From Iodidimonas sp. SYSU 1G8 (GTDB taxonomy: Bacteria; Pseudomonadota; Alphaproteobacteria; SMXS01), in assembly GCF_039655775.1 (NCBI RefSeq), contig NZ_JBBYXJ010000002.1, positions 620,001 through 684,000 on the forward strand: 64,000 nt of DNA, written 5' to 3'. The notes below the pieces were generated by a model that ran no database searches, was not told where the DNA came from, and was given only the letters and a program-made list of their open reading frames with translations. Below, one piece after another: positions 27,185 through 62,165 of this stretch. The position numbers and the translations under genes are program-made. The stretch's first letter is position 1. Each line of letters starts with the position of its first letter.

Positions 27185-27282
27185 CTGGGCTCCCCAAAGT
27201 CATCTGCGCTTGTTTGTACAACCCTTCGGCGGCGGTGGTAAAGGGTGCTGAAGGATGAAGCGAAAATTCAGCCTTTATGATA

Positions 27283-27323: not shown

Positions 27324-27340
27324 GTTATATTTCGTGAGTG

Positions 27341-41477: not shown

Positions 41478-41484
41478 GGGTGGC

Positions 41485-42264: not shown

Positions 42265-42304
42265 CCCGTTAGTTCCTTTCGTCTTCCCTTGAGAGTGTTT
42301 TGTG

Positions 42305-43336: not shown

Positions 43337-43337
43337 G

Positions 43338-44582: not shown

Positions 44583-44584
44583 GG

Positions 44585-45850: not shown

Positions 45851-46245
45851 CGCAGCTTGCTCCACCATTTCTGCATGACCACGCCGTGGTCCTTGGAATA
45901 GCGCTTGGCGAGTTCACTGGCGTCGTCGGGCAAATCCTGGTGCTCGGTCGGCGGCAACTCGTTGGCGCCCTGGACTGGATCGATCCATTCCAGCTTGTTG
46001 CTCTCCAGCAAGGAACCGAAGTCCGGCGCCTCATGATGGTCGCTGGTCTGATGAACCATGAATGACCGGTAGTCCTTGAACGACAGCAGGCAGTAGTAGT
46101 GGCCGGGCTTTTGCGAGCGGAAGTACTCGTAGCGCAGCACGTCCTTTTCCAGCCTGTGCGTCTGTTCCCAGATCTGCCGGGCGACCGTTTCGAACTCGGC
46201 TTCCTTGCCGTCGAAGATCTTCAGATGGGCGATGAAGGTTGCCAT
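45847..46245 (-). CDS. ABM-fold (antibiotic biosynthesis monooxygenase-like) protein, copy 2
   Basis: The 132-residue protein has an ABM/dimeric alpha-beta barrel domain: MATFIAHLKIFDGKEAEFETVARQIW, then RYEYFRSQKPGHYYCLLSFKDYRSFMVHQTSDHHE. A roughly 45-residue C-terminal tail ends KRYSKDHGVVMQKWWSKLR. ABM proteins can be cofactor-free monooxygenases or simple binding proteins. It follows its tandem paralogue by 13 bases and overlaps the P450 start by 4 bases. GGGGAGAG precedes the ATG. Confidence 0.8.
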   Translation of the reverse strand: MATFIAHLKIFDGKEAEFETVARQIWEQTHRLEKDVLRYEYFRSQKPGHYYCLLSFKDYRSFMVHQTSDHHEAPDFGSLLESNKLEWIDPVQGANELPPTEHQDLPDDASELAKRYSKDHGVVMQKWWSKLR

Positions 46246-46258
46246 GAGCGTCTCTCCC

Positions 46259-46666
46259 CTAATTCCGCAGCGCCGACCACCAGTCGGCCATGCGGATCGC
46301 ATAGCTCTTGGCGTATTTCTGGACCAGTTCGCTGGCGCCGGGCGGGGCGTCCTGCGGCTCGTTCTGGGCGAGGGCGTTCGCGCCCTTCACGGCGTCGACC
46401 CACTCGATCTCGATGTTCTGGACCAGATCGCCAAACTCGGCGCCAAAATCCTCGTGGGCATCGCTGGACTGGTGCACCAGAAAGGCCTGGAAATCCTTGA
46501 ACGACAAAAATCCGTAATACGAACCTTCCTTTTCGCCACGGAAGAACTCGTAACGTGTCGTCCCCGGCTCTGTCGCGTGGGTCGTGCGCCACAGCGAGCT
46601 CTGCAATTCCTCGAACCGGGCTTCCCTGCCCGGTTTGATCTGGATGTGGGCGAGGATTGTCGCCAT
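46259..46666 (-). CDS. ABM-fold (antibiotic biosynthesis monooxygenase-like) protein, copy 1
   Basis: This 135-residue first gene of the eight-gene operon shares its whole layout with the next: MATILAHIQIKPGREARFEEL, RYEFFRGEKEGSYYGFLSFKDFQAFLVHQSSDAHED and a tail with KYAKSYAIRMADWWSALR. The conserved SFKD-F-V/LHQ-SD block and the terminal WW are distinctive. Function may be oxygenation without cofactor, or binding of a P450 substrate or product; only position supports this. GGGGAAG precedes the ATG. Confidence 0.8.
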   Translation of the reverse strand: MATILAHIQIKPGREARFEELQSSLWRTTHATEPGTTRYEFFRGEKEGSYYGFLSFKDFQAFLVHQSSDAHEDFGAEFGDLVQNIEIEWVDAVKGANALAQNEPQDAPPGASELVQKYAKSYAIRMADWWSALRN

Positions 46667-47104
46667 GTCGTCTTCCCCGTTTCAAGAGCATCGCAAGGTT
46701 GCGTCGTGCCGTACAACCTTCATGCGTGATTGTTTTGCGGCAGTTTGAGACCGGGCGGACGGGCGAGTCAAGGATTAACGCCGAGGTCAGGTCGCGGCTG
46801 GAATGATGAGGCCGGGATAGGGCGCAAAAACGCACTGATACCGGTGTCTGACCCTGAGGTCGTTGCAGCTGCAAGCACCGGTTTTCAAAGGAAAACCCGT
46901 CTGGCACCGTTGTCTTAAAAAAACAGTCATATTTGTGTAAATTGACCCTATCCTCATGATTAATCAGTACTTTTTGCAATACATGCATGCGTGAATGTGT
47001 AGTGACCCTAGATTCCCCTGCCCCTAGGGTGCGCCGCTTCAAAGGTCCGTCGTGCAAGTCGGGCCATGCTCATGAACGGGCAAGCAACTGAAGGGGAGTA
47101 GCCA
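46667..47104. promoter_or_regulatory. Divergent regulatory region between P450 operon and TonB array
   Basis: This 438-bp region has no gene. It holds several dyads: AAGGTTG (46696-46702) / CAACCTT (46715-46721), 30 bases before the ABM gene; the perfect palindrome TTGCAGCTGCAA (46863-46874); and ACCCTAG (47005-47011) / CTAGGGT (47024-47030), 75 bases before the receptor gene. CATGCGTGA occurs at 46722-46730 and again at 46986-46994, followed by TGTGTAGTGAC. These suggest control of both operons, possibly by one regulator. No regulator gene is adjacent. Confidence 0.55.
46990..47007 (+). promoter_or_regulatory. GCGTG/GTGAC element, copy upstream of receptor 1
   Basis: GCGTGAATGTGTAGTGAC reads from about 46989 to 47006, roughly 100 bases before the receptor 1 start. 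It matches the copy upstream of receptor 3 at 14 or 15 of 18 positions, with the GTGA units 11 bases apart. It overlaps the left arm of the ACCCTAG dyad. Confidence 0.5.
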
Positions 47105-49834
47105 ATGAAAAAGGACAAGCTGCGCACGCTGATGATCGGGGGGGCGACTGTCGCCCTGTCCGGTCTGGCGTTCGCATGGACGCCGGTCATCGCGCAGGAT
47201 GCGCCGGCCGCCGCCGCGCCGAGCCAGTCGTCAGTGGGCGTGCTGGAATCGGTCACGGTCTCGGGCACGAAGCGTGAGTCCAACCAGCAGGAAACGCCGA
47301 TCGCGATCTCGACGGTGACCTCGGCCCAGCTCGAGAACACGTTCATCTCGGACGTGCGCGCCGTGGCCCAGATGGCGCCGAACGTGATCCTCAGCAACGT
47401 CACCGGCTTCAACGCGCTGGCACCGGCCATCCGCGGCGCCGGTACCAACGGCATTCTGGTCACGCAGGACGCGGCCATCGGGCTCGTCATCGACGAGTTC
47501 GCGCTCTCCAGCGTGCAGTCCCAGTTCGTGGAACTGTTCGACATCGAGCAGGTGGAAGTCTATCGCGGTCCGCAGGGCACGCTGTTCGGCAAGAGCACGA
47601 CCGGCGGCGCCATGGCGATCACCACCAAGAAGCCGGAGATGAACGAGTATTTCGGCCAGGCCGAGCTGACCTTCGGCGGCTACGGCCGTGAAGGCGGCAA
47701 CATCGGCAAGGGCAAGCTCGCCATCAACGTGCCGGTGGTTGACGACAAGCTGGCGATCCGCATCACCGGCGTCTACGACTATTCGGACGGCTACTACCGG
47801 AACGACAAGGACACCTCGACCTTCCCGAATCTGGTGCCGTTCTATGCCGCGCTGGGCTTGCCGACGGTCAACCCGCCCATGCCGGCCGGCCTCGACACCT
47901 CGACCCGTGGCTCGGGCGAGCACCTCGGCGGTCGTGATGTCCTCGCCATGAAGGCGAAGGCGCTGTTCACGCCGACCGACAATTACGAGGCGCTGTTTAC
48001 CTTCGAGCTGGTGCGCGACCGCTCCGACAGCCCGCCCGGCGTGAACGAGACCGTCGCCGTCGACCGCTTCGGCACCCAGTTCCTGCTGCCCCGCCTGGGC
48101 TTCATCGGCATCGCCGATGCCGGCGTCGGTGACAATCCGTTCAGCACCGGCATTTCCAACCAGAACACCCGCGCCCAGAACGTGGCGAAGGGGCATTCGG
48201 TGAATGTCGAGGGCTTCTACCTGAACCAGTCGATGGAATTCGACAGCTTCACCGTGAAGTCGATCACCGGCTACCGGATGATGGAAGAGACGCTGCCCAG
48301 CACCTATCCGGGTGAAGCGTTCAACAACCTGTTCGACAGCTCGCGCAATCTCGAGCGCAAGATGTTCCAGCAGGAACTGCGCATGGTCACCAATTTCGAC
48401 GGCCCGTTCAATTTCGTCGCGGGCGGCCAGTACTTCATGGACAACATGCAGTTCCGCGCCTTCTCGTCGCAGGGCTTCCAGTCGCTGTACAACTTCCATC
48501 GCACCGGTCCGACGCTCGGCACCACGCCCAGCCCGGTCCAGTATTATGACGCGATGGGCAATCTGAACCTGAACCTGGATTACATCAACGATCCGACGGT
48601 GACCGGTTCCGAACAGTACCGTGACACCTATGCGGTGTATTTCGACTTCAATTACGACATCACGGACCGCCTGACGTTCAATGGCGGCGTGCGCTACACC
48701 TACGACAAGAAGAAGTTCGTGCGCTTCCATGACGGCAATGGCCCGTGCACGAGCGCGACGCAGCTCGAGTATCAGCGCTATCCGAACGACGACCCGAACA
48801 CGCCTGGCGTCTATGAAGGCCCGTGTTTCGACAGCCGCTCGAACGCCATCAGCCGCGCCGGTCTGACCGCCAACGACGTCAATCCGCGCGAGAACCCGCT
48901 GCCCCTGTCGGCGTTCGGCCTGAACGTCAATACTCAGGACAGCTGGAAGCGCCTCACGTGGCGCGCCGTCGTCGACTACAAGGTCACCGACGAGATCATG
49001 ACCTATGCCGGCTATTCGACCGGCTTCCTGGCCGGCGGCTTCACCGAGACCTGCTCGGGCGTCGCCACCTGCGTGCCGTTCAATCCGGAAAAGAACTGGA
49101 ACATCGAAGCCGGCCTGAAGGCGGATCTGTTCGACCGCACGTTGCGGTTCAATCTCGCGGCCTTCTACACCCGCTATAACAACCTGCAGCGCAACCAGGT
49201 CGTGCCGTACATCAATTCGGTCGGCAACCTGGCCCAGGAAACCATCACCGTGAACGCCGGTGAGTCGGAATCCTACGGTCTCGAACTGGAAACCGTCTGG
49301 GTGCCGGTCGACAATGTGCGCGTCGATTTCACCATGGGTTACCTGAAGTCCAAGTACCTGGATTTCCAGACCGACTACATTCCGTCGGACGCGGTCCTGA
49401 TCTCGCGCGGCCTGTGCACCGCGTCGCCCTGCTCGGCGAACGGCGTCCCGGGCGCGAACATCAACGGCAATCTGGACGATGGTACCCTGCTGACCGTGCC
49501 GTTCTCGCCCAAGTGGAACATTGGCATGGGCATCACCTATGACATGGATCTGGGCAACACCGGCACGCTGACCTGGAACGCCAACTTCCACTATCAGTCG
49601 AAGGCCGAATGGCAGGTGTTCAACAGCGAGAACACCCAGCTGCAGGAACGCTTCCTGCTCAACGCCAGCCTGACCTATCGCGATCTGGACGAACGTTACC
49701 GCGTGACCGTCTATGGCAAGAACCTGCTGAACGAAGTCTACCGCACCAACGCCAACTCGGTGGCCGGTCTGTGGAACTTCACCCAGTATGGCGCCCCGAT
49801 CGAGTGGGGCATCGAAGCCGGCTTCTACTTCTAG
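47105..49834 (+). CDS. TonB-dependent receptor 1 of the four-receptor array
   Basis: The 909-residue receptor has a signal peptide (MKKDKLRTLMIGGATVALSG to VIAQDAP), a TonB-box-like LESVTVSGTKRES and a plug domain (TPIAISTVTSAQLENTF to VEVYRGPQGTLFGKSTTGGAMAI). A long beta-barrel ends in GIEAGFYF with the terminal aromatic residue needed for BAM recognition. It belongs to the same subfamily as the three following receptors (shared ITAYRKQKE-like, NAISRAGLTA and GFTETCS blocks). GAAGGGGAG precedes the ATG. It likely imports an organic substrate across the outer membrane with TonB-ExbBD energy. Confidence 0.94.
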   Translation: MKKDKLRTLMIGGATVALSGLAFAWTPVIAQDAPAAAAPSQSSVGVLESVTVSGTKRESNQQETPIAISTVTSAQLENTFISDVRAVAQMAPNVILSNVTGFNALAPAIRGAGTNGILVTQDAAIGLVIDEFALSSVQSQFVELFDIEQVEVYRGPQGTLFGKSTTGGAMAITTKKPEMNEYFGQAELTFGGYGREGGNIGKGKLAINVPVVDDKLAIRITGVYDYSDGYYRNDKDTSTFPNLVPFYAALGLPTVNPPMPAGLDTSTRGSGEHLGGRDVLAMKAKALFTPTDNYEALFTFELVRDRSDSPPGVNETVAVDRFGTQFLLPRLGFIGIADAGVGDNPFSTGISNQNTRAQNVAKGHSVNVEGFYLNQSMEFDSFTVKSITGYRMMEETLPSTYPGEAFNNLFDSSRNLERKMFQQELRMVTNFDGPFNFVAGGQYFMDNMQFRAFSSQGFQSLYNFHRTGPTLGTTPSPVQYYDAMGNLNLNLDYINDPTVTGSEQYRDTYAVYFDFNYDITDRLTFNGGVRYTYDKKKFVRFHDGNGPCTSATQLEYQRYPNDDPNTPGVYEGPCFDSRSNAISRAGLTANDVNPRENPLPLSAFGLNVNTQDSWKRLTWRAVVDYKVTDEIMTYAGYSTGFLAGGFTETCSGVATCVPFNPEKNWNIEAGLKADLFDRTLRFNLAAFYTRYNNLQRNQVVPYINSVGNLAQETITVNAGESESYGLELETVWVPVDNVRVDFTMGYLKSKYLDFQTDYIPSDAVLISRGLCTASPCSANGVPGANINGNLDDGTLLTVPFSPKWNIGMGITYDMDLGNTGTLTWNANFHYQSKAEWQVFNSENTQLQERFLLNASLTYRDLDERYRVTVYGKNLLNEVYRTNANSVAGLWNFTQYGAPIEWGIEAGFYF

Positions 49835-49846
49835 TCATCCGTCGCG

Positions 49847-49873
49847 GAGGGGCGGGCAGCCTGCTCGCCCCTC
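49847..49873 (+). terminator. Hairpin after TonB receptor 1
   Basis: GAGGGGCGGGCAG (49847-49859) can pair with CTGCTCGCCCCTC (49861-49873) with one G-U pair, the innermost bases forming the loop. The following T-run is weak (TCTTCC). It lies 13 bases after the receptor 1 stop. It probably reduces read-through into the next receptor gene. Confidence 0.55.
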
Positions 49874-49959
49874 TTCCGACAGGGGTGACGATAAAAGACA
49901 TGCAAGCTTGGTGTTGCCGACAAGCCACACTGTTTGGATATCGGTGTCATAACAGTCAT

Positions 49960-49985
49960 GCGTGAACGATTGAGCGTGACGTGAC
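49960..49985 (+). promoter_or_regulatory. GCGTG-N3-GATTG-N3-GTGACGTGAC element upstream of receptor 2
   Basis: The 26-base element agrees with that at 62066-62091 at all 20 positions of GCGTG, GATTG and GTGACGTGAC, with identical 3-base spacings. It ends 88 bases before the receptor 2 start. The preceding TCAT makes TCA-TGCG-TGA, a small dyad. It is a candidate binding site for a shared activator or repressor. Confidence 0.55.
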
Positions 49986-50073
49986 TGATTTTAACTGCTT
50001 ATTCTCCCCTCCGTCTGAATAGCGTCCCGATCAACGGGCGCGAGCCAATACGGACCCGAAGGGGAGTTCAACG

Positions 50074-52731
50074 ATGAGTGTGTCATTGCGACGCGCGCTA
50101 TGCGCGTCGGTCGCCCTTACTATTGCCGGAGCCTGGGCGCCGGCTTACGCGCAGGACGCGGCCCCGGCCGCCGCCGCGCCGACGCAGCGCGCGGGACTTG
50201 AGACGGTCACCGTCTCGGGCACCAAGCGCGAAGAAGCGTCGCAGGACGTGCCGATCGCCATCTCGGCGATTTCCGAACAGCAGCTTGCCAACACCTTCCG
50301 CAGCGACGTGCTCGCCGTGTCCGACATGGCCGCGGGCGTGACGCTGGGCCAGATGGCCGGCTTCCGCGCCGTCGCGGGTGGTATCCGCGGCACCGGCCAG
50401 AACGGCATTCTGGTGACGCAGGACAGCTCGGTCGCCATCCTGGTCGACGAATTCGGCCTCAACAACGTGCAGGCGCAGTTCGTCGAACTGTTCGACGTCG
50501 AGCGGGTCGAGGTCTATCGCGGTCCGCAGGGCACCCTGTTCGGCAAGAACGCCACCGGCGGCGCGATCTCGATCGTGACCAAGCGTCCGGAAATGAACGA
50601 GTTCACCGGCGACGTCGAATTCCAGCTGGGCATGTTCGACAGCAACAACGGCAAGATCGCCAAGGGCAAGTTCGCGATCAACATTCCGGTTGTCGAAGAC
50701 AAGCTGGCCCTGCGTATGACCGCCATCTACGACTATGATGACGGCTATATCACCAACAGCAAGTCGGCCGGCAGCTTCCCGAACCTGATCCCGCTGTACG
50801 GCGCATACGGTCTGCCGACCGTCAATCCGCCGCTTCCCCCGGAACTGGGCACCAACGCCACCGGCACCGGCGAGCGCGTGAACGGCACCGATGTGTTCGC
50901 GGGCAAGTTCAAGGCCCTGTTCACGCCGAACGACGTCTACGAAGCCTATTTCATCTGGGAAGTGCTGCGCGACCGGTCTGACTCGACCGCCAGCGTCAAC
51001 GATTCCCCCGCGCTCGGCGCGATCGATCCCGACGCGGGCGTGCAGAACATGCTGCTGCCGCTGCTCGGCTTCCCGGGCATTGACACCACCGGTGACAGCC
51101 CGTGGGTGACCGGCGTGTCCAACCAGTGCGCCGGCAATAATCCGCGCGGCCTGTGCATCACCTCGGGCCACCGGGTCAACGTCGACGGCTACCATCTGCA
51201 CCAGTCGCTGAATCTGGAAGACGTCAGCTTCAAGCTGATCACGGCCTACCGGAAGCAGAAGGAAATCCTGCCGAGCTCGTATCCGGGCGAAGCCTTCGTC
51301 AGCCTGTTCGACGCCACGCGTAACCTGGAGCGCGAGCAGATCCAGATCGAGTTGCGCGCCGCCACCAATTTCGACGGCCCGATCAACTTCATCGCCGGCG
51401 GCACCTATCAGGAAGACAACGTCGACATGCGGTCGTTCTCGACCGTCGGCCTGTCCTCGCTGCTGCCGCGCACGGATGCCCAGCTTGGCCGTCCCACCGT
51501 CGGTAATCCCTATCTGGACGATCGCGGCTTTGTGAACCTGGATCTGGACTACATCAACGATCCGGCCACGGGCGGCGCCAGCCAGGACCGCACGACCTAT
51601 GCCTTCTACTTCGACGGCAACTGGGACATCACCGATCGCCTGCGCTTCACCGCCGGCGTCCGCTGGACCCTGGACAAGAAGTCGTTCTTCCGCCGGGCCA
51701 ACCCGGGCGGCGAGTGCAACCAGTACACCAAGGCCAAGGATCAGCGTTTCGTCGATGTCGACAACAACGTCAACACCCCGGCCGTCTGCTTCGACACCCG
51801 CTCCAACGCCATCTCGCGTGGCGGTCTGACGGCTTCGGATATCGATCCGCGCCAGATCCCGCTGCCGGATGAGCAGTTCGATCTGGTCGTCAACACCAAT
51901 GACAGCTGGGACAAGATCACCTATCGCGGCGTCCTGGACTACAAGGTCACCGACGAAGCCCTGATCTATGCCAGCTATGCCACCGGCTTCATCTCCGGCG
52001 GTTACACCGAAACCTGCTCGAGCGTCCGCACCTGCGTGCCGTTCCAGCCGGAAAACAACTGGAACGCCGAACTCGGCCTGAAGGCGCGCTGGTTCGACAA
52101 CACCCTGCAGACCAACATCGCGGCGTTCTACACCGTCTATTCCGACCTGATCCGTTCCCAGGTGGTGCCGTTCACCGACTTCGCCGGCAACACCACCCAG
52201 GAAACCATCAACGTCAACGCCGGCAAGTCCCGCGTAATCGGTCTCGAAGCCGAAATCAACTGGATGCCGACCGACAATCTGCGCGTCGACCTGTCGGCCG
52301 CCTATCTGAACCACAAGTACAAAGAGTTCCTTCTTGACCGTAACGGCGACGGCGACACGCTCGACGCCAACGAAAATCTGGTCGACTACAAGGTGCCGTT
52401 CTCGCCGAAGTGGAAGATCGGTGGCTCGATCACCTATGACGTCATCCTGGGCGATGCCGGTGTCCTGAGCCTGAACACCAGCGCCAACTACCAGTCTGAA
52501 GCCGAAATGGCCGTGTTCAACTCGCTGAACACCCAGATGGAATCCCGCTTCCTGTGGGATGCCGCAGCGACCTGGCGCGACGCCAACGAGCGTTACCGTG
52601 TGACGGCCTTCGTGAAGAACATCCTAAACGAAGAGCACCGTATCGGTTCCAACTCGGTGGCCGGCCTGTGGAACATGACCATCTACGGTCGTCCGCGGAC
52701 CTACGGCGTCGAAGTGGGCTTCCACTTCTAA
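50074..52731 (+). CDS. TonB-dependent receptor 2 of the array
   Basis: The 885-residue receptor has a signal peptide (SVSLRRALCASVALTIAGAW to AYAQDA), TonB-box-like LETVTVSGTKREE, a plug domain with VEVYRGPQGTLFGKNATGGAISIV, and a barrel ending GVEVGFHF. It is strikingly close to receptor 4: most of the plug and barrel align without gaps, and two DNA tracts (51331-51398 and 52141-52229) are identical to it. GAAGGGGAG precedes the ATG. It probably has the same substrate class as receptor 4, with differences mainly in surface-loop segments. Confidence 0.95.
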   Translation: MSVSLRRALCASVALTIAGAWAPAYAQDAAPAAAAPTQRAGLETVTVSGTKREEASQDVPIAISAISEQQLANTFRSDVLAVSDMAAGVTLGQMAGFRAVAGGIRGTGQNGILVTQDSSVAILVDEFGLNNVQAQFVELFDVERVEVYRGPQGTLFGKNATGGAISIVTKRPEMNEFTGDVEFQLGMFDSNNGKIAKGKFAINIPVVEDKLALRMTAIYDYDDGYITNSKSAGSFPNLIPLYGAYGLPTVNPPLPPELGTNATGTGERVNGTDVFAGKFKALFTPNDVYEAYFIWEVLRDRSDSTASVNDSPALGAIDPDAGVQNMLLPLLGFPGIDTTGDSPWVTGVSNQCAGNNPRGLCITSGHRVNVDGYHLHQSLNLEDVSFKLITAYRKQKEILPSSYPGEAFVSLFDATRNLEREQIQIELRAATNFDGPINFIAGGTYQEDNVDMRSFSTVGLSSLLPRTDAQLGRPTVGNPYLDDRGFVNLDLDYINDPATGGASQDRTTYAFYFDGNWDITDRLRFTAGVRWTLDKKSFFRRANPGGECNQYTKAKDQRFVDVDNNVNTPAVCFDTRSNAISRGGLTASDIDPRQIPLPDEQFDLVVNTNDSWDKITYRGVLDYKVTDEALIYASYATGFISGGYTETCSSVRTCVPFQPENNWNAELGLKARWFDNTLQTNIAAFYTVYSDLIRSQVVPFTDFAGNTTQETINVNAGKSRVIGLEAEINWMPTDNLRVDLSAAYLNHKYKEFLLDRNGDGDTLDANENLVDYKVPFSPKWKIGGSITYDVILGDAGVLSLNTSANYQSEAEMAVFNSLNTQMESRFLWDAAATWRDANERYRVTAFVKNILNEEHRIGSNSVAGLWNMTIYGRPRTYGVEVGFHF

Positions 52732-52758
52732 CGCACGACTTAAACCCTCACCGGTTAT

Positions 52759-52787
52759 AGCGGGCGCTTCGGCGCCCGCTTTTTTTT
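52759..52787 (+). terminator. Rho-independent terminator after receptor 2
   Basis: AGCGGGCGC (52759-52767) and GCGCCCGCT (52772-52780) close a TTCG tetraloop, followed by a run of T residues to 52787. It is a textbook intrinsic terminator. Nearly identical stems follow receptors 3 and 4. Confidence 0.92.
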
Positions 52788-52829
52788 GCTGTGGCGGGAT
52801 CGACACAAAACCCTGAAAAAAGACCGTCA

Positions 52830-52848
52830 GGCGTGAATTTATCGTGAC
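52830..52848 (+). promoter_or_regulatory. GCGTG/GTGAC element upstream of receptor 3
   Basis: GCGTGAATTTATCGTGAC (about 52831-52848) lies 83 bases before the receptor 3 start and is preceded by GTCAG. It is the closest relative of the receptor 1 copy, with GTGA units 11 bases apart. Confidence 0.5.
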
Positions 52849-52930
52849 AATCTAAAAACCGCCCGTAAGGTTTTATGAAACGGATCCGCGAATGGGGTCG
52901 CGATCCGATCATATGGGGAGGATTCACGCG

Positions 52931-55495
52931 ATGATTGCGACCAAGGGATTGATCCGTCTATCGACGGCGGCCTTGCTGGCCGGCGTGTTCACGGGGGCCG
53001 TCAGCGCCCAGGACGCCGCGCCGCCACCACCGCCGCCGCCCGAGGCGGGACGGGCGCAGCTGGAGACGGTCTATACCTCGGCCACGCGCCAATCGACCGA
53101 CGTGCAGACCACGTCCATCGCGGTGACGTCCATCTCGCCGGCTGAAATCGAAACCCGGTTCGTGCAGGACATCCGGGGGATCGCCGATCTCTCGCCCAAC
53201 GTGACCATCCAGCAGGTGACCGGCTTCAACGCGGCGGCGATCGGCATCCGGGGCACGGGCACCAACGACATCATCACCTCCATCGATTCCGCGGTGGGCG
53301 TCGTCGTCGATGATTTCGCCCTGGTGCACACGCAGGGCCAGCTGCTCGATCCATTCGACGTGGAATCCATCGAAATCCTGCGCGGACCGCAAGGCACCCT
53401 GTTCGGCAAGAACACCACGGGCGGCGTTGTCGTGGTGCGCACCACCCGGCCCAAGCTCAATGAGTTTGGCGGCAAGCTGCAGCTCCGGGGCGGCAATCTG
53501 GGCATGCTGGAAGGTCGCGGCGCCGTCAATATCCCGCTGGTTCAGGACAAGCTCGCGGCCCGCGTCGTCGCCATGTACCAGACCGACAGCGGTCAGTACA
53601 CCAACGACAAGGTCAGCCAGGTCTACGGCGTCAATGGCGGTCCGACGCCGTTCGGGCGTCCGGTCAATGGCGACGGCCGCCGTGTGGATGGCAAGAACGT
53701 CTTCTTCGGCCGCGGCAAGCTGCTGTTCACGCCGAGCGACAATTACGAAATCCTGGCGTCGTTCGAAATCCTGCGGGACCGGTCCGATACGGTACCGGGC
53801 ATCAACGAGACGCCGTCCAACGGTCAGCTCGACAAGTTCGGCATTCCCCGTGGCTTTCTGTTCAACGCCATCGGCTTTCCCGGCATCCAGCAGACCTGTG
53901 CCGAGCTGACCCAGAAGTGCATCCTCAGCACCGGCGTCAGCTTTCGCGATGACGGCCTGCGCATGGAGCGCGGTCACCGCATGGACGTGATGGGCGGCTA
54001 CCTCCAGCAGAAACTGGACATGGACACGCTGACGGCCGAGCTGTTCCTCGGTTACCGGAAGCAAAAGGAACGGCTGCCCAGCACCTATGCGGGCGAGGCG
54101 TTCCCGTCGCTGTTCGACGCGACGCGGCATCTCGAACGCGAGCAGATGCAGGCCGAGTTGCGGCTGACGTCCAGCTTCGACAGTCCTTTCAATTTCATCG
54201 CCGGCGCCGCCTACTACATCAACAATCTCGACTGGCGCTCGATCAGCTATGTGGGTTTCACCTCGGTGCCGTTCCTGAATCCGGCCTGCGATATCGAGAA
54301 TCCGGCGGGCGATCCTGACTGCGTGGCGCTCGATCCCAGTTTCGCGTCCATCGACCGCGCGAACTTCACGCCGCTGCATCAGGACGCCGACGCGCTCGGC
54401 ATCTATGCGGAGTTCTACTACGACATCACCGAGCGGCTTAAGCTGACCGCCGGCGTGCGCTATTCCTACGAGAAGAAGAAGTTCCTCACCTATAACGGCG
54501 CGGCCCTGACGCCGGACGAAGCCGACCTGTTCCGCCGCGACAATGGCGGCACGGCCCTCGAGGAGATCCTGACCCAAGGCGCCACGCCCGACAATCCCGG
54601 CCGCTTCAACTTCGTCTATGGCGACCAGAAATCGTGGGACAATTTCACCTTCAAGGGCGTCCTCGGCTACACCGCCGATGACAGCAACTTCTTCTACGCC
54701 AGCTTCAATCAGGGCTTCAAATCGGGCAGCTTCGTCGAAACCTGTACCTCGCTCGGCACCTGCCAGCCGTTCGAGGAAGAGACCGCCAACTCGTTCGAGG
54801 TCGGCTACAAGGGCGACATGTTCGACAACACGCTGCGCCTGAACCTTGCCTTGTTCTATACCAAGATCAAGAACGTGGTCCGGTCGCAGGTTGTCCAGAT
54901 CATCAATGAATTCGGTCTTCCCGACCAGGAAACCCAGTTCCGCAACATCGCCGGCCAGCGCAACTGGGGCGTCGAGGCGGAAATGAACTGGCTCGCGACC
55001 GACAATCTGCGCTTCAGCGCCACCGCCGCGTATCTGAACGCGGAATACACCGAGTTCCTCACCGACGTGAACGGCAGCGATCCGATCAGCACGACCATGC
55101 CGGAGTGCATGAATGTCGACGGCCTGAACGACGACGCCAAATGTCTCGGCATCAAGCCGAACTTCGCCCCGAAATGGCAGCTTGGCGCGACGGTCAATTA
55201 CGACATGCCGCTGGGCAACAACGGCGCGCTGAACTGGAACGCCAGCGTTCACTGGAGCCCGGAATACGAGTTCACGGTCTTCAACTCGGACTACACGCAG
55301 GCCCAGGAGCGCACCCTGGTCAACGCCAGCGTCACCTATGTCGAGCCGGAGGAACGGTGGCGGCTGTCGCTGTTCGTCAAGAACCTGCTCAATGAAACCT
55401 ACCGGACCGGCGGCAACTCGGTGGCGGGGCTCTGGAACTTCACCAATTACGGCCAGACACGCCGCTGGGGAGCGGAGTTGAATATCAACTTCTAG
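52931..55495 (+). CDS. TonB-dependent receptor 3 of the array
   Basis: The 854-residue receptor has a signal peptide (MIATKGLIRLSTAALLAGVF to VSAQDAA), a proline-rich linker (PPPPPPPEAG), TonB-box-like LETVYTSATRQS, a plug ending VEILRGPQGTLFGKNTTGGVVVV (in the order IEILRGPQG), and a barrel ending AELNINF. It is the most divergent of the four. ATG 52931 is chosen because GGGGAGGA lies upstream and the signal peptide starts there; the frame is open from 52892. It has its own upstream element and is flanked by terminators, so it may be a separate transcription unit. Confidence 0.94.
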   Translation: MIATKGLIRLSTAALLAGVFTGAVSAQDAAPPPPPPPEAGRAQLETVYTSATRQSTDVQTTSIAVTSISPAEIETRFVQDIRGIADLSPNVTIQQVTGFNAAAIGIRGTGTNDIITSIDSAVGVVVDDFALVHTQGQLLDPFDVESIEILRGPQGTLFGKNTTGGVVVVRTTRPKLNEFGGKLQLRGGNLGMLEGRGAVNIPLVQDKLAARVVAMYQTDSGQYTNDKVSQVYGVNGGPTPFGRPVNGDGRRVDGKNVFFGRGKLLFTPSDNYEILASFEILRDRSDTVPGINETPSNGQLDKFGIPRGFLFNAIGFPGIQQTCAELTQKCILSTGVSFRDDGLRMERGHRMDVMGGYLQQKLDMDTLTAELFLGYRKQKERLPSTYAGEAFPSLFDATRHLEREQMQAELRLTSSFDSPFNFIAGAAYYINNLDWRSISYVGFTSVPFLNPACDIENPAGDPDCVALDPSFASIDRANFTPLHQDADALGIYAEFYYDITERLKLTAGVRYSYEKKKFLTYNGAALTPDEADLFRRDNGGTALEEILTQGATPDNPGRFNFVYGDQKSWDNFTFKGVLGYTADDSNFFYASFNQGFKSGSFVETCTSLGTCQPFEEETANSFEVGYKGDMFDNTLRLNLALFYTKIKNVVRSQVVQIINEFGLPDQETQFRNIAGQRNWGVEAEMNWLATDNLRFSATAAYLNAEYTEFLTDVNGSDPISTTMPECMNVDGLNDDAKCLGIKPNFAPKWQLGATVNYDMPLGNNGALNWNASVHWSPEYEFTVFNSDYTQAQERTLVNASVTYVEPEERWRLSLFVKNLLNETYRTGGNSVAGLWNFTNYGQTRRWGAELNINF

Positions 55496-55519
55496 GCGGG
55501 GGACAATCCGCGACGGCAG

Positions 55520-55543
55520 GCGGGCGCTTCGGCGCCCGCTTTT
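55520..55543 (+). terminator. Rho-independent terminator after receptor 3
   Basis: GCGGGCGC (55520-55527) and GCGCCCGC (55532-55539) close a TTCG tetraloop, followed by TTTT. The stem is the same as that after receptor 2. The T-run is shorter. Confidence 0.85.
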
Positions 55544-55715
55544 CATTCCGGCTCGGACGACGGCGCGTGCGACATAAAAGCAACAATGAATGTAAAAAGC
55601 AGATGTGACTGCTTTCTGTAATGACTGGTCCAGTTTTACCTCGTATCTTCCGCCTTTGGAAACGGTACCGCCGGGTAACGGGCGGGCCGTGGGAAGTGAA
55701 CCCTGGGGAGGTCTC

Positions 55716-58391
55716 ATGAAACAATCGTTCAGACAAACCGTCAGTGCGTATGCACTCGCCGCCGCCATGGGCGTGACGCTCGTGGCCGCCGGCCAGGCGC
55801 ATGCGCAGTCAGCGCCGGCCGCCGCGCCGCCGGGCGCCGCCGCGCCGCGCACCGGTCTCGAAAGCGTGACCGTGTCCGGCACCAAGCGCGACGAAGCGTC
55901 GCAGGACGTGCCGATCGCCATCTCGGCGATCTCGGACCAGCAGCTCGCCAACACGTTCCGCAACGACGTGCTCGCCGTGTCCGACATGTCGCCGGGCGTC
56001 GCGCTCGGCCAGCTCGCCGGCTTCCGCGCCATCGCCGGTGGTATTCGCGGTACGGGCCAGAACTCGATCCTGGTGACCCAGGACAGTTCGGTGCCGATCA
56101 TCGTCGATGAATTCGGCCTCAATCACGTGCAGTCGCAATTCGTCGAACTGTTCGACGTGGACCGCATCGAGGTGTACCGCGGCCCGCAGGGTACCCTGTT
56201 CGGCAAGAACTCCACTGGCGGCGCGATCTATATCGTGACCAAGCGTCCGGAGATGAACGAGTTCAGCGGCAAGGTCGAGTTGCAGCTGGGCATGTTCGAC
56301 AGCAACAATGGCAAGATCGCCAAGGGCAAGCTGGCCCTCAACATTCCCGTCGTCGAAGACAAGCTGGCGATCCGCATGGTCGGCATCTACGACTACGATG
56401 ACGGCTATATCAAGAACAGCCACGTCGCCAGCGGCTTCCCGAACTTCGTGCCGCTCTATGGCGCCTATGGCCTGCCGGTGGTCAATCCGCCGCTGCCGCC
56501 CGAGCTCAACACCAACGCGGCCGGTTCCGGCGAGAACCTGAACGGCACCGACGTGTTCGCCGGCAAGTTCAAGGTCCTGTTCACGCCGACCGACAACTAC
56601 GAAGCCTACTTCATCCTCGAGGCCCTGCGCGACCGCTCCGACTCGGTGCCGAGCGTCAATGACTCACCCGTTCTCGGCGCCATCGACCCGGATGCCGGCC
56701 CGCAGAACATGCTGATGCCGCTGCTCGGGTTCAATGGCCGTGACGCGACGGGCGAAAGCCCCTGGGTCACCGCCGTCACCAACCAGTGCGCGGGTAACAA
56801 CCCGTCGGGCCTGTGCATTCCCTCGGGCCACCGCGTCAGCGCCATGGGGTACAATCTGCAACAGAACCTGGATCTGGACGTCGTCAGCTTCAAGCTGATC
56901 ACGGCCTACCGGAAGCAGAAGGAAATCCTGCCCAGCACTTATCCGGGCGAGGCGTTCAACAGCCTGTTCGATGCCACCCGCAATCTTGTGCGCGAGCAGA
57001 TCCAGATCGAGTTGCGCGCCGCCACCAATTTCGACGGCCCGATCAACTTCATCGCCGGTGGCACCTATCAGGAAGACAACGTGAAGATGTTGTCCTACTC
57101 CACCGTCGGCTTGTCCTCTTTGCTGCCGCGCACGGATGCCCAGCTTGGCCGCCCGACGGTCGGCAATCCCTATCTGGATGACCGTGGCTTCATCAATCTG
57201 GATCTGGACTACATCAACGATCCTGCCACGGGCGGAGCCGACCAAGACCGGTCCACCTATGCCTTCTACTTCGACGGCAACTGGGACATCACCGATCGCC
57301 TGCGCTTCACGGCCGGCCTGCGCTGGACTCTGGACAAGAAGTCGTTCTTCCGCCGCGCGAATGCGGGTGGTGTCTGCAATCAGTACACCAAGCCCAAGGA
57401 CCAGCGGCTTGTCGACACCGACAACAACGTCAACACGCCTCCCGTCTGCTTCGACACCCGCTCGAACGCCGTATCGCGCGCTGGCCTGACCGCCGCCGAC
57501 CTCGACCCGCGCAACCTGCCGCTGCCGAACTCGGCCTACGCCCTGGTGGTGGACACGAGCGATGAGTGGGACAAGATCACCTGGCGCGCCGTTGTCGACT
57601 ACAAGGTCACCGACGAAGCCATGGTCTATGCCAGCTACTCGACGGGCTTCATCTCGGGCGGCTTCACCGAGACCTGTTCCAGCCCGACGACCTGCGTCGC
57701 GTTCCAGCCGGAAAACAACTGGAGCGCCGAACTGGGTCTGAAATCGCGTTGGTTCGACAACACGGTGCAGGCCAATTTGACCGCGTTCTACACCGTCTAC
57801 TCCGACCTGATCCGTTCCCAGGTGGTGCCGTTCACCGACTTCGCCGGCAACACCACCCAGGAAACCATCAACGTCAACGCCGGCAAGTCGCGCAATCTGG
57901 GCGTCGAGGCGGAACTGCAGTTCCAGCCCACCGACCAGCTGCGCATCGATCTGTCCATCGCCTACCAGGACCATAAGTACAAGGAGTTCTTCCTGGACCG
58001 TAATGGCGATGGCGACACGCTCGACGGTAACGAGAACCTGACCGACTACACGGTGCCCTATTCGCCGAAGTGGAAGATCGGCGGCTCGGTCACCTATGAC
58101 GTCGTTCTCGGCAATGCGGGCGTCCTGACCCTGAACACCACCGGCAACTATCAGTCGGAAGCCGAAATGGCGGTGTTCAACTCGCTGAACACCCAGATGA
58201 CCGAACGCTTCCTGTGGGATGCCTCGGCCAGCTGGCAGGATGTGAACGAGCGCTACCGCGTCACCCTGTTCGCCAAGAACATCCTGAACGAAAAGTACCG
58301 GCTCGGCTCCAACTCGGTGGCCGGTCTCTGGAACATGACCATCTATGGCAAGCCGCGCACCTACGGTATCGAGCTCGGCTTCAACTTCTAG
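55716..58391 (+). CDS. TonB-dependent receptor 4 of the array
   Basis: The 891-residue receptor has a signal peptide (MKQSFRQTVSAYALAAAMGV to AHAQSAP), an alanine/proline linker, TonB-box-like LESVTVSGTKRDE, a plug with IEVYRGPQGTLFGKNSTGGAIYIV, and a barrel ending GIELGFNF. It is a paralogue of receptor 2 with constant register over long stretches (offset 5660 bases). CTGGGGAGG precedes ATG 55716; the open frame back to 55605 lacks conservation. Upstream, ATGTGACTG at about 55603-55611 resembles only part of the shared GTGAC element. Confidence 0.95.
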   Translation: MKQSFRQTVSAYALAAAMGVTLVAAGQAHAQSAPAAAPPGAAAPRTGLESVTVSGTKRDEASQDVPIAISAISDQQLANTFRNDVLAVSDMSPGVALGQLAGFRAIAGGIRGTGQNSILVTQDSSVPIIVDEFGLNHVQSQFVELFDVDRIEVYRGPQGTLFGKNSTGGAIYIVTKRPEMNEFSGKVELQLGMFDSNNGKIAKGKLALNIPVVEDKLAIRMVGIYDYDDGYIKNSHVASGFPNFVPLYGAYGLPVVNPPLPPELNTNAAGSGENLNGTDVFAGKFKVLFTPTDNYEAYFILEALRDRSDSVPSVNDSPVLGAIDPDAGPQNMLMPLLGFNGRDATGESPWVTAVTNQCAGNNPSGLCIPSGHRVSAMGYNLQQNLDLDVVSFKLITAYRKQKEILPSTYPGEAFNSLFDATRNLVREQIQIELRAATNFDGPINFIAGGTYQEDNVKMLSYSTVGLSSLLPRTDAQLGRPTVGNPYLDDRGFINLDLDYINDPATGGADQDRSTYAFYFDGNWDITDRLRFTAGLRWTLDKKSFFRRANAGGVCNQYTKPKDQRLVDTDNNVNTPPVCFDTRSNAVSRAGLTAADLDPRNLPLPNSAYALVVDTSDEWDKITWRAVVDYKVTDEAMVYASYSTGFISGGFTETCSSPTTCVAFQPENNWSAELGLKSRWFDNTVQANLTAFYTVYSDLIRSQVVPFTDFAGNTTQETINVNAGKSRNLGVEAELQFQPTDQLRIDLSIAYQDHKYKEFFLDRNGDGDTLDGNENLTDYTVPYSPKWKIGGSVTYDVVLGNAGVLTLNTTGNYQSEAEMAVFNSLNTQMTERFLWDASASWQDVNERYRVTLFAKNILNEKYRLGSNSVAGLWNMTIYGKPRTYGIELGFNF

Positions 58392-58416
58392 TCGACGGGT
58401 ACAACCCAAGAACCTG

Positions 58417-58444
58417 GCGGGCGCTGCGGCGCCCGCTTTTTTTT
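58417..58444 (+). terminator. Rho-independent terminator after receptor 4
   Basis: GCGGGCGC (58417-58424) and GCGCCCGC (58429-58436) close a TGCG loop and are followed by eight T residues. It is a strong intrinsic terminator. It separates the array from the MFS gene. Confidence 0.92.
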
Positions 58445-58591
58445 GTGAAGATGCCGGGGCCGGAACAACATTCACGTACAACTTTTCAGCACGGGAAAAG
58501 TCGCGTACAAGGTGGGGCGGGTCGGTCCGGGGGCCGCCTGTTCCACTTTTTCGCCCTGTCCTTGGCAGGGCCGTGTTGTAGGCGGGGTTCC

Positions 58592-59971
58592 ATGCAAGAC
58601 TCTGAGAGCGTGCGGCCGGGAGAGCCGCCATGGCCGAATCCGGCCTATGCGTGGTACGTGGTCATCGTCCTGTTCATCGGTGCGATCGTGTCGTTCCTGG
58701 ACCGGCAGATCATCGCGATCATGGTCAGCGACATCAAACTGGACCTCGGCCTGTCGGATTTTGAGATCGGCCTCTTGCAGGGTCCGCCCTTCGGCATCTT
58801 CTATGCCCTGATGTCCATCCCGATCGCCCTGGCGGCGGACCAGTTCAACCGGCGCAACATCATCGCGATCGGCGTGACCTTCTGGAGCCTGGCCACCGCC
58901 GCGTGCGGCTTCGCGGGCCATTTCTGGCATCTGTTCCTGGCCCGCATCAGCGTCGGCGTCGGCGAAGCGACCCTCAGCCCGTCGGCCTATTCCATCATCA
59001 GCGACTATTTTCCCAAGTCCAAGCTGGCCATGGCGATGAGCGTGTTCACCATGGGCAATCTGACCGGCGTCGGTCTTGCCATGGTGCTCGGCAGCGCGTT
59101 GCTCGCCGCGCTGAATGCCATCGGCCCGACCGACCTTCCGCTGCTGGGCACCATGCGTCCCTGGCAACTGGCGTTCGTCGCGGTCGGTCTGCCGGGACTG
59201 CTGCTGGCCCTTCTCGTGTTGACCATCCGCGAGCCTTATCGTCGTGGCCGGACGGTCAGTGATGAAACACAGGGCGGAAAAGCGCAACTCGCGGATTTCA
59301 TCGCCTTCCTGCGAAGCCATTCGGCGACCTTCGGTCATCTGCTGGTCAGCTTCACCATCCTGGTGCTGATCGCCTACGCCAACTTCGCCTGGGTCGTGCA
59401 GTTCTTCGTGCGCTCCTTCGGGACGACCCAGACGGAAGCCGGCATGTGGTATGGCACCATCGTGCTGATCTTCGGCACCATGGGCGCCTTCTTCGGCGGC
59501 TGGCTGTCGAACCGGCTGATGCGCGCGGGCTATGTTGACGCGCCTTTCCGCGCCTCGCTCATCTGCACGCTGCCGCTCGCCGTATGTGCCTTCTTCGCGT
59601 TCGTGGTCGCGCCGGATTCCTGGTGGGCGCTGGTCGCGCTGGCGCCCTGCCAGTTTCTCGGCGCCGTGCCAGCCGGTCTGGCGGGCACCGCGATGATGTC
59701 GATCACGCCGAACCAGATGCGCGCCAAGGCGGCGTCGGTCTATCTGTTCTTCAGCAATATCGTCGGCATCAGCCTGGGATCGACCATGGTCGGCTTCCTG
59801 ACGACGCATGTCTTCCGGGACGACAGCCGGCTGGGACACGCGCTCGCCATCATCAATTGCGGCGGCGCGCCCATCGCGGCGCTGATCATCTTCCTCGGGA
59901 TGAAGCACTATCGCGCCAGCCTGCTGCATGTGGAGGAACTGACGGCCCGGCAGATGCAGGCGGCCGGCTGA
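58592..59971 (+). CDS. MFS transporter (spinster-like)
   Basis: The 459-residue protein has about 12 membrane helices. TM1 starts YAWYVVIVLFIGAIVSFLDRQIIAIMV with the FLDR motif seen in spinster-like MFS proteins, then ALAADQFNRRNIIAIG (motif A) and ARISVGVGEATLSPSAYSIISDYFP. Members move sphingolipids, sugars or organic acids. Placed directly after four outer-membrane receptors, it may carry the imported compound across the inner membrane, although a terminator lies between. The start at 58592 follows GGCGGGG. Confidence 0.9.
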   Translation: MQDSESVRPGEPPWPNPAYAWYVVIVLFIGAIVSFLDRQIIAIMVSDIKLDLGLSDFEIGLLQGPPFGIFYALMSIPIALAADQFNRRNIIAIGVTFWSLATAACGFAGHFWHLFLARISVGVGEATLSPSAYSIISDYFPKSKLAMAMSVFTMGNLTGVGLAMVLGSALLAALNAIGPTDLPLLGTMRPWQLAFVAVGLPGLLLALLVLTIREPYRRGRTVSDETQGGKAQLADFIAFLRSHSATFGHLLVSFTILVLIAYANFAWVVQFFVRSFGTTQTEAGMWYGTIVLIFGTMGAFFGGWLSNRLMRAGYVDAPFRASLICTLPLAVCAFFAFVVAPDSWWALVALAPCQFLGAVPAGLAGTAMMSITPNQMRAKAASVYLFFSNIVGISLGSTMVGFLTTHVFRDDSRLGHALAIINCGGAPIAALIIFLGMKHYRASLLHVEELTARQMQAAG

Positions 59972-59974
59972 TGC

Positions 59975-61447
59975 CTACTCGGCGGCGGACGTGGCGGGCT
60001 TGCGGACGCGCGGCCTTGGCGGGGAAGGTGGGACCATGGCGGCCTTGAGCTCGTCGAAGGCATCGCGGAAGCAGCTCATGTAGAATTCCGGATCGGGCAT
60101 CATGTCCCGGTCCGAGATGGCCGTGATGGTCAGCTTGCCGTCATAGCTCAGGATGGTGTGGAACAGGCCCAAGCCGTCCTGCACGATACCCAGCCCGTAC
60201 TGATTCACCAGCCGCGCGCCGGCGAAGTATAGCGGATGCTGTGGGCCAGGGACGTTGGTCATGACGGTGTTGAACAGCGGCCGCCCGCCATTCGCCAGGC
60301 GCATCTGGGCGAGAAACTGGGCCGCGACGCCGTTGGTGGTGGCCGGCAGCAATTGCTGGAAATCGGTCAGCAGGCGCGCGCCGATCGCATTGGTCAGCGC
60401 CTTGGAATTGGACGTCGAGGCGCGGACAGCCTCCAGCCGTTGACGCGGATCGGCGATATGGGTGCCGAGCGACGCCAGCATCGCTGTGACTTCATTGCCG
60501 GTGGTCATCGCCGTGGCCGCCCGCGTCCGAACCGAAATGGGCGCCATGGTGATCAGCGGTTCGTCCGGGAGCTCGTTCTTGGCCAGCAGGTAACGGCGCA
60601 GCGCACCGCCGCCGAGCGCCAGAACCACGTCGTTGATGGTCGCGCCGGGAAGCGCATCCTTGATGGCGCGGAGATCCGCCAGGTCGAAGCTGATGCCATT
60701 GAAGACACGTCGACCGGAAATCTCCCGGTTGAACCGGGTCGATGGCACTTGGCCGGCGGGCAAATCCATCCGCAGGTTTTCCTCGCCAAGGGTGAGGAAG
60801 TAGCGCGCCGAGGCGGGCACGGACTCGGCCATCAGCTTGAGGAGGCGCATGGGCTGCGCCAGATTGTTCATATGCGCCCGGCCGAGCAATTCCATGGGCG
60901 TGGGCTCCGTCTCGGGAGTCCAAGGCTCGGGCGTGCCGAGGCGCAGGCCCGGCTCGGTCTCGTGGATCGCCGTATTCATGGAGACGGACGAGACGCCGTC
61001 GATCGCCGCATGATGCAGCTTGGTGACGATGGCGAAGCTGCCGGGCGGCAGTCCCTCCACATTGTCGAGTCCCTCGATCACGTCCATGGTCCAGAGCGGC
61101 CGGCTCAAATCGAGCGGGCGGTCATGCAAACGCGAGACGAGAATGCATAATTGCCGCCAGTCGCCCGGCTTTGGCAGGGCGAGATGACGGACGTGATATT
61201 CGATATCGAACCGGGAATCGTCGACCCAGTAAGGGTGGTCCAGATTCAGCGGTACGTTGGCCAGCTTCTGCCGATATCTGGGCCCCTTGTGAATATGGGA
61301 TTCCAGATATCGCAGGATTTGCCGGAACCGCAGCATCCCGCCCGGCACGGTGGACTGATCGTAGATGTACAGTCCACCGATGTGGTTGGCGACGCGCTCG
61401 TTCTCGGTATACAGGAACGAGGCGTCGAGCGGGCTGAGCTGTTCCAT
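59975..61447 (-). CDS. Wax ester synthase / diacylglycerol acyltransferase (WS/DGAT)
   Basis: The 490-residue protein has the WS/DGAT active-site motif HHAAIDG in TKLHHAAIDGVSS, an N-terminal MEQLSPLDASFLYTE, and the C-terminal NVPGPQHPLYFAGARL and GLGLFHTILSYDGKLTI blocks. It esterifies a fatty alcohol or diacylglycerol with acyl-CoA to make wax esters or triacylglycerol for storage. It follows the phasin gene by 24 bases on the same strand, so lipid and PHA-type storage may be co-expressed. The stop faces the MFS gene end, 3 bases apart. Confidence 0.94.
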   Translation of the reverse strand: MEQLSPLDASFLYTENERVANHIGGLYIYDQSTVPGGMLRFRQILRYLESHIHKGPRYRQKLANVPLNLDHPYWVDDSRFDIEYHVRHLALPKPGDWRQLCILVSRLHDRPLDLSRPLWTMDVIEGLDNVEGLPPGSFAIVTKLHHAAIDGVSSVSMNTAIHETEPGLRLGTPEPWTPETEPTPMELLGRAHMNNLAQPMRLLKLMAESVPASARYFLTLGEENLRMDLPAGQVPSTRFNREISGRRVFNGISFDLADLRAIKDALPGATINDVVLALGGGALRRYLLAKNELPDEPLITMAPISVRTRAATAMTTGNEVTAMLASLGTHIADPRQRLEAVRASTSNSKALTNAIGARLLTDFQQLLPATTNGVAAQFLAQMRLANGGRPLFNTVMTNVPGPQHPLYFAGARLVNQYGLGIVQDGLGLFHTILSYDGKLTITAISDRDMMPDPEFYMSCFRDAFDELKAAMVPPSPPRPRVRKPATSAAE

Positions 61448-61471
61448 GGCTGGAGGACAGTCGGCCGAAAG

Positions 61472-61924
61472 TTACTTCTTCGCGACGGCCTGCAGTTCGG
61501 ACATGCTGTCCTGGAAGCGGCGGCCGATGACGCCCCAAGCTTCGGTCTGCGACTTGCCGGCCAGCTCGGCCAGTTCCTTCATATTGGACACCGACTTCTC
61601 GAACGCGCCGCGGGCCATTTCGACCGGCTTGGCGAACACATCGGCGCCGCCGCCGGCGGTGATGGTCTTGGCGGTTTCCTGGAAGTCGCTCATGGCTTCG
61701 GCGGCCAGCTCCTGCTGACGCTTGGCGACGGCCTGCATGCCTTCGAGCGCGATGCGGTTGGCTTCGGTGAGAGCCGCGAAGTTCGCCTGGCCCGTCTTCA
61801 TGACACTATCCATGTCGAACTTGGGCATGGCGCCCATGTTGAACGACGGCATGCCACCCGCGAACTGGGTGAAGCTCTTGGTCATGTTCTCGAAGGCTTC
61901 GGTGAACGGGTTGGTCTGGGACAT
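61472..61924 (-). CDS. Phasin family protein
   Basis: The 150-residue helical protein has the phasin core: MDSVMKTGQANFAALTEANRIALEGMQAVAKRQQELAAEAM, followed by VEMARGAFEKSVSNMKELAELAGKS, with amphipathic helices and no membrane segment. The N-terminal QFAGGMPSFNMGAMPKFDM is flexible. Phasins coat polyhydroxyalkanoate granules. No PHA synthase is in the window. GAGGAGAG precedes the ATG, and two TGC-type dyads lie 59-103 bases upstream. It heads an operon with the WS/DGAT gene. Confidence 0.92.
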   Translation of the reverse strand: MSQTNPFTEAFENMTKSFTQFAGGMPSFNMGAMPKFDMDSVMKTGQANFAALTEANRIALEGMQAVAKRQQELAAEAMSDFQETAKTITAGGGADVFAKPVEMARGAFEKSVSNMKELAELAGKSQTEAWGVIGRRFQDSMSELQAVAKK

Positions 61925-61982
61925 CAGTGCTCTCCTCGGGAAACGTGCTGGTCAGCGGCATTTTCGTAACGGGCCCGCTTTG

Positions 61983-62027
61983 TTGCAGTGCAATATAACG
62001 ATGAAGGCGGATTTTGCAACCGCAAAA
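61983..62027. promoter_or_regulatory. Pair of TGC-type dyads upstream of phasin gene (PhaR-like sites)
   Basis: TTGC-AGT-GCAA (61983-61993) and TTTTGC-AACC-GCAAAA (62012-62027) are perfect dyads with spacers of 3 and 4 bases. From memory, PhaR repressors of alphaproteobacteria recognise CTGC-N3/N4-GCAG elements near phasin genes. The match is in spacing and TGC/GCA core, not in the outer C/G. Confidence 0.55.
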
Positions 62028-62065
62028 AGCATGCCTGTCCGCGGACACCAGCGGGGGCACTAATC

Positions 62066-62091
62066 GCGTGCTTGATTGTTAGTGACGTGAC
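62066..62091 (+). promoter_or_regulatory. GCGTG-N3-GATTG-N3-GTGACGTGAC element upstream of hydrolase gene
   Basis: This 26-base element matches that upstream of receptor 2 at all 20 specified positions. It lies 75-100 bases before the hydrolase start, the same distance range as in the receptor array. It links the hydrolase to the array regulon by sequence only. Confidence 0.55.
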
Positions 62092-62165
62092 GACCCGTAA
62101 ATACCGTCTATAGTGACTGACACAGGACAACCGTCCATTCGGCAAGGACGGGACGAGGACAACGA

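Follow-up and report, generated by a model that had tools for sequence, protein, structure and literature searches.

Among the described systems closest to the one considered here, KstR is an autoregulated catabolic repressor of the TetR family that acts in cholesterol catabolism. PheR of Sphingobium sp. SHPJ-2 is, in the excerpts of its report, a repressor whose loss raises catabolic genes and several TonB-dependent receptors (PMC13273656), and for the bile-salt cluster of Caenibius tardaugens the excerpted report proposes that the TetR protein EGO55_16300 acts on the catabolic cluster (PMC12882949). Here we analyzed a 64,000-nucleotide stretch of the genome of Iodidimonas sp. SYSU 1G8 ("the window"; positions are those of this stretch unless a contig is given), in which an earlier note had described a recurring GCGTG...GTGAC element upstream of three TonB-dependent receptor genes and a hydrolase gene, with a half copy before a P450 operon, and had suggested one regulator for all of them. 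Our analyses suggest that the receptors and the P450 operon quite probably share one operator and one regulator, in a compound promoter in which the operator and the promoter boxes would be separate elements.

As for KstR, a TetR-type protein is predicted from the sequence to have dyad operators that are spread over many catabolic promoters and also occur at the promoter of its own gene, and the KstR-DNA structure 5fmp is among the PDB fold matches of the model computed for this candidate regulator. Unlike the KstR operator, the operator here is of the type TCAYGCRTGA, and the predicted regulon includes TonB receptors. With PheR, the predicted system would share a single regulator spanning catabolic genes and TonB receptors; however, PheR belongs to the IclR family and has the essential core 5'-GCAACG-3', and its effect on receptors comes from transcriptomes, with no common receptor operator seen for PheR in the excerpts (PMC13273656). 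EGO55_16300 is likewise a TetR protein in a bacterium using TonB receptors, but the palindromes proposed for it in the excerpted report, ATAGGGCCATTG and GCATGCGGGATGC, differ from the operator found here (PMC12882949). Among the papers listed in a literature search with the 12-mer GTCACGCGTGAC and four core strings, none dealt with a regulator with this operator, as judged by titles and the beginnings of abstracts. Assigned by comparison only, the operator set would form a new regulon within a known class, the autoregulated TetR type.

Judged from the sequence, the motif of the earlier note is two fused elements, i.e., the right half of a dyad operator (GCGTG(A)) and a -35 box (GTGAC). When the intergenic regions of relatives were aligned on TCA (the window sites were kept, and the sites of receptor 4 and the hydrolase were set aside before counting), the operator showed the consensus AACA[AG]TCAYGCnTGA, about 20 bp long with the palindromic core TCA-N4-TGA; the genus-wide form is near AAnAGTCAYGCRTGACTnTT. 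The orientation of the dyad relative to the downstream gene was constant among 13 aligned receptor sites, 7 sites before ABM1 or MDR genes and 6 sites before the second P450 gene. At receptor promoters the dyad is centred upstream of the -35 box, with GTGAC or ATGAC located 11 - 16 bp from the dyad centre (about 17 bp at receptor 4), and putative boxes of the form [GA]TGAC-N16-18-TAnnnT were observed in 14 of 14 cluster receptor promoters from seven genomes, a spacing of -35 and -10 hexamers that is consistent with housekeeping-type bacterial promoters. In the window these putative promoters, all on the + strand, are GTGACC-N17-TAGGGT for receptor 1 (47002..47030), GTGACG-N18-TATTCT for receptor 2 (49976..50005), GTGACA-N16-TAAGGT for receptor 3 (52844..52871) and ATGACT-N17-TATCTT for receptor 4 (55621..55649). 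At the P450 and TetR promoters, on the other hand, the dyad, as judged by eye, is located at the start region or beyond it and no GTGAC follows it; the -35 and -10 boxes of the P450 promoters were read by eye as CTTGACT and CAAACT/CACACT.

To obtain independent scores, a matrix was trained exclusively on sites of six other genomes (21 in total) and then applied to the window. The highest score belonged to the operon of ABM, P450, MDR, SDR and Fe-ADH genes, whose operator AACAATCACGCATGAAGGTT (46715..46734, - strand; 29.8 bits; 0 of 300 shuffles) is located about 58 bp before ABM1 and has a counterpart in all seven aligned promoters, including that of G007; what had been read as a half copy at 46721-46733 is a piece of this complete site. 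It was followed by the operator before the second P450 gene (25925-27184), located just upstream of the ribosome-binding region (27195..27214, - strand; 22.3 bits; 0 of 300 shuffles; found in 6 of 6 genomes), and by those of TonB receptor 2, AACAGTCATGCGTGAACGAT (49951..49970, + strand; 21.7 bits; 0 of 300 shuffles), TonB receptor 1, TACATGCATGCGTGAATGTG (46980..46999, + strand; 18.4 bits), and the MFS transporter gene (58467..58486, + strand; 17.5 bits; 0 of 300 shuffles), which starts at about 58592 and matches Pfam MFS_1. Lower matches were found at 23346 (16.3 bits), before receptor 4 (55594..55613; 14.9 bits on the - strand), at 14831 (13.9 bits) and before receptor 3 (52822..52841; 13.4 bits on the - strand and 10.8 on the + strand). 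The sites of the second P450 gene, receptor 4 and the MFS transporter had been overlooked previously. Overall, the window contains 10 matches with at least 14 bits as compared to 0.4 expected under a first-order Markov model, the two strands of a palindrome being counted twice. In leave-one-species-out scoring, the intergenic regions that contain ABM, P450 or receptor promoters in relatives, 15 in total, reached 18.6 to 29.7 bits, each equalled by none of 300 mononucleotide shuffles; a distant receptor (C2:1547k) reached 9.1 bits (14 of 300 shuffles).

Across the genus, the location of the operator relative to genes carries the weight of the argument and represents stronger evidence than its enrichment. 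The palindrome AAANTCAYGCRTGANTTT, with up to 2 mismatches, was found at 54 places in seven same-genus genomes as compared to 1 for the reversed control, and only one of these places (G005:C2:332642) had been a training site of the matrix. A total of 41 of the 54 were located at the 5' end of labelled genes (labels by BLAST to Pfam-labelled proteins; a place with two flanking genes counted once), i.e., 15 at P450, 7 at receptor, 5 at TetR, 6 at gltX/comEC and 6 at glyoxalase genes, with one each at an acyl-CoA dehydrogenase and a thioesterase gene; 3 of the 54 fall within the first part of an open frame as called. Among the 13 unlabelled places, 5 represent one conserved site, which neighbors a zinc-ADH gene in both genomes tested. 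Pfam searches at five unlabelled loci identified a zinc-ADH and an a/b-hydrolase (L310), a zinc-ADH (L276), a lysozyme inhibitor (L296) and methyltransferases (L300 and L306). A sequence-only profile of 21 sites also placed sites outside the cluster beside P450, SDR, nitronate monooxygenase, acyl-CoA dehydrogenase and receptor genes; no more than 150 candidates were scored in each genome, and the matches of this search are an incomplete set. G007, G008 and G009, which belong to the same family, contained 18 palindrome places and no controls. A gene of 208 residues that is preceded by an operator (L205), suspected from its size to encode the regulator, proved to encode a glyoxalase by Pfam. Matches in a plasmid collection were limited to short receptor fragments.

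With regard to the earlier note, all strings named in it (four copies and the half copy) were found at their positions. For the 26-bp form GCGTG-N3-GATTG-N3-GTGACGTGAC, the window contains two copies, and a search of the 3.92-Mb genome that tolerated 3 mismatches likewise gave two (0 expected from window shuffles). The loose form GCGTG-N3-20-GTGAC was present at chance level (6 observed, 6.1 expected). In a genome scan, the composite GCGTGA-N7-GTGAC was poorly specific (66 places as compared to 27 for the reversed pattern, both at up to 1 mismatch), whereas the dyad was specific; 30 of the 66 places were fetched as loci, and the context was examined for the two in the cluster as well as for L005 and L006, which lie within an open reading frame and at the 5' end of one, respectively. 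The form of the earlier note was correctly placed at 3 of the 55 receptor genes of this genome, with an additional, unrelated match at -202 (L088). The difference of 3 bases between copies reflects two separate elements, the dyad and the -35 box, whose spacing varies. As its parts vary in spacing and also occur apart, the composite was rejected as one unit. The idea of one regulator is supported for the receptors and the P450 operon, both by leave-one-species-out scoring and by genus-wide recurrence, but not for the hydrolase, which shares only the -35 box GTGACG.

A TetR-family protein encoded at G000:C1:37730-38437 (i.e., in the genome analyzed here) is the candidate regulator, which we regard as having somewhat better than an even chance of being correct on the basis of sequence comparisons. 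This protein has an N-terminal TetR_N domain (PF00440; 32.2 bits against a cut-off of 24), and it is 55-78% identical across six aligned orthologues, with LSRGAMQYHFETM in the helix-turn-helix region identical in all eight. A dyad operator at the own promoter is usual, but not universal, for TetR-family regulators, and such an operator was found directly upstream of the gene in 5 of 8 orthologues; in G001, G002, G003 and G004 the identical 18-mer AAAGTCATGCGTGATGGT immediately precedes the gene and follows TATATA or TATATC, and G000 has a variant. The AlphaFold model (mean pLDDT 77) has nine helices in an all-helical two-domain fold, and most of the listed PDB matches carry the names of TetR-family regulators, with TM-scores of 0.30-0.57 on the query; the model supports a TetR fold alone and is silent on the ligand. 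When compared to NCBIfam TetR subfamilies (ScbR, AcrR, BetI, FadR, PsrA and others), the protein reached the cut-off of none (best 42.1 against 150, ScbR_bind_reg).

A number of observations weigh against a common operator or against this candidate. The pattern of palindrome AAANTCAYGCRTGANTTT was refined after the matches of the profile search had been seen, and 19 genomes of other families (about 78 Mb) contained 46 palindrome places and 7 controls. The reversed-pattern control is therefore too lenient, and as sole proof of enrichment it is weakened by these outgroup counts; a fair estimate of enrichment is about 3.6-fold per Mb (25 Mb in the genus as compared to 78 Mb in the outgroups). The sites at gltX/comEC and parB are not in line with a purely catabolic regulon. 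Receptors 3 and 4 carry weak sites (1 of 300 shuffles each), and 49 of the 55 receptors of the genome have no site of at least 13 bits within 300 bp, 6 having such a dyad. Three of the 8 orthologues lack the operator of the TetR gene itself (G005 has only a half, G006 and G007 have none), TetR paralogues at C1:1910930, C1:1542753 and C2:419344 are preceded by TCA-N4-TGA dyads whose cores differ, and a different TetR subfamily has an operator upstream in G007 and G009.

One alternative leaves the operator and regulon unchanged and assigns the role of regulator to a paralogous TetR or to the MarR-family protein of the cluster (27338-27811). The dyads with other cores before TetR paralogues and the conservation of the MarR gene in the cluster at 83-88% are consistent with this explanation, which we nevertheless consider doubtful, as the YGCR core was found in none of the eight competitor TetR upstream regions scanned in this genome and the MarR promoter bears a different conserved dyad, TArTATAC-N3-GTATAyTA. 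The window TetR (31679-32401) was rejected as well; it is not located beside the cluster in the stretches of relatives and has no promoter site among the listed matches. A common element could also be merely an extended promoter recognized by an alternative sigma factor, its -35 box being GTGAC, in which case the hydrolase would be included. GTGACG with a spacer of 16-18 bp is indeed common to the receptors and the hydrolase and is kept in 6 of 7 hydrolase promoters, but the -10 boxes (TATcGT, TATAGT) resemble the housekeeping sigma type, and the dyad occurs without trailing GTGAC at P450 and TetR promoters, which makes this explanation very improbable. Tandem duplication of receptor genes, leaving promoter likeness as a remnant without regulatory meaning, would agree with the identity of receptor 2 to receptors 4, 1 and 3 (81%, 58% and 44%, respectively); it can hardly account for the presence of the same dyad before unrelated genes (ABM, P450s, MFS, TetR, glyoxalase), for its persistence beyond the divergence of flanking DNA across species, or for the clear difference between the sites of receptors 2 and 4, which are the most similar pair.

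The hydrolase is apparently not a member of the regulon; its sequence suggests a syntenic neighbor with its own ordinary promoter, GTGACG-N16-TATAGT (62087..62114, + strand), which has boxes kept in 6 of 7 genomes and no operator. Rather than being distant, as had been stated, the gene is a neighbor of the cluster by synteny in relatives. The copy described there lacks the dyad, scoring -16.8 bits in the register of the earlier note. The corresponding intergenic regions of six relatives scored 9.4, 8.6, 0.3, 9.1, 12.1 and 1.2 bits, the GCGTG part was absent from the relatives' hydrolase promoters, in which only the promoter boxes are conserved, and no operator that is both above background and conserved was found at this gene. 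Recent acquisition of a site in this species, which would make the hydrolase a regulon member, appears improbable to us: the genome contains no 26-bp match to the receptor-2 promoter other than the one at this gene, TTGATTGTT in its region is similar to an operator half, and the 12.1 bits in G006 (1 of 300 shuffles) are the sole result favoring a hydrolase site, but the best score of its own intergenic region is only 7.8 bits (equalled by 11 of 300 shuffles) and the other five relatives remain between 0.3 and 9.4 bits.

The operon (40311..46666, - strand) comprises, by Pfam, genes for an Fe-ADH, an SDR, an MDR, two P450s and two ABM-type proteins, and the tandem array of four TonB-dependent receptors (Pfam) extends over 47105..58391 on the + strand, with the MFS transporter, WS/DGAT, phasin and hydrolase genes beyond it. 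The order operon, receptor(s), phasin and hydrolase is kept in five same-genus genomes, with one to three receptors in their syntenic clusters (the G002 cluster is divided between two contigs), and partly in G007; at the coverage set for the search, G006 and G007 were the only relatives whose clusters yielded WS/DGAT. A second conserved block upstream contains another P450, SDRs, the MarR gene and an efflux pump. Terminator-like hairpins GCGGGCGCTTCGGCGCCCGC with T runs, one of them a GCTGCGGC variant, are located between successive receptors (52760-52790, 55510-55540 and 58415-58445), and each receptor is therefore probably a separate transcription unit.

Additional conserved elements were observed. 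Between the second P450 and MarR genes (27263-27320), the dyad before the MarR gene is conserved in relatives (by eye) and is probably MarR's own operator. The other-core dyads upstream of TetR paralogues, at C2:419229, C1:1542822 and C1:1911001 of G000, perhaps mark a TetR clade with diverged operators. Between the phasin and hydrolase genes (61955-62030), TTGTTGCAnTGCAATATAA and TTTTGCAACCGCAAAAA are conserved in relatives beside the phasin start; we take them to resemble PhaR-type TGC/GCA sites. AAAGTCACGCGTGATAGT (a one-base variant in G006) is located between the divergent gltX and comEC genes in 6 of 7 same-genus genomes (L173, L175, L213). ATTCACGCGTGAAT occurs beside parB, near 1501 in L165 and L166 (G001:C18 and G002:C10), with L166 differing by one base, and may represent a parS-like site that is not part of the regulon.

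Under the compound-promoter reading, a single regulator binding the dyad operator would couple the outer-membrane uptake of a compound to its oxidation, the uptake side being formed by the four TonB receptors and the MFS transporter and the oxidation side by two P450 transcription units here and more elsewhere in the genome. The candidate TetR probably represses its own gene, as the same operator directly follows a TATATA-like -10 box in four relatives, with a variant here, and a substrate or metabolite would release it from the operator. Steric repression would be expected at the P450 and TetR promoters, where the operator is located at or after the start region; at the receptor promoters, where it lies just upstream of the -35 box, repression and activation would both be possible. 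It is tempting, if rather speculative and on balance unlikely, to extend this to an autoregulated TetR that runs a genus-wide uptake-and-oxidation program with the operator in two positions (repressing at P450s and its own gene, possibly activating at receptors) and that also reaches glyoxalases and gltX/comEC. If true, this TetR would act globally, controlling growth on a certain class of hydrophobic substrates, and would not be a local pathway repressor.

Those Alphaproteobacteria that are rich in P450s and TonB receptors have dozens of each without assigned substrates. A common operator indicates which receptors, transporters and P450s act together, and deletion of a named candidate gene would expose the whole set, so that their substrates become testable.

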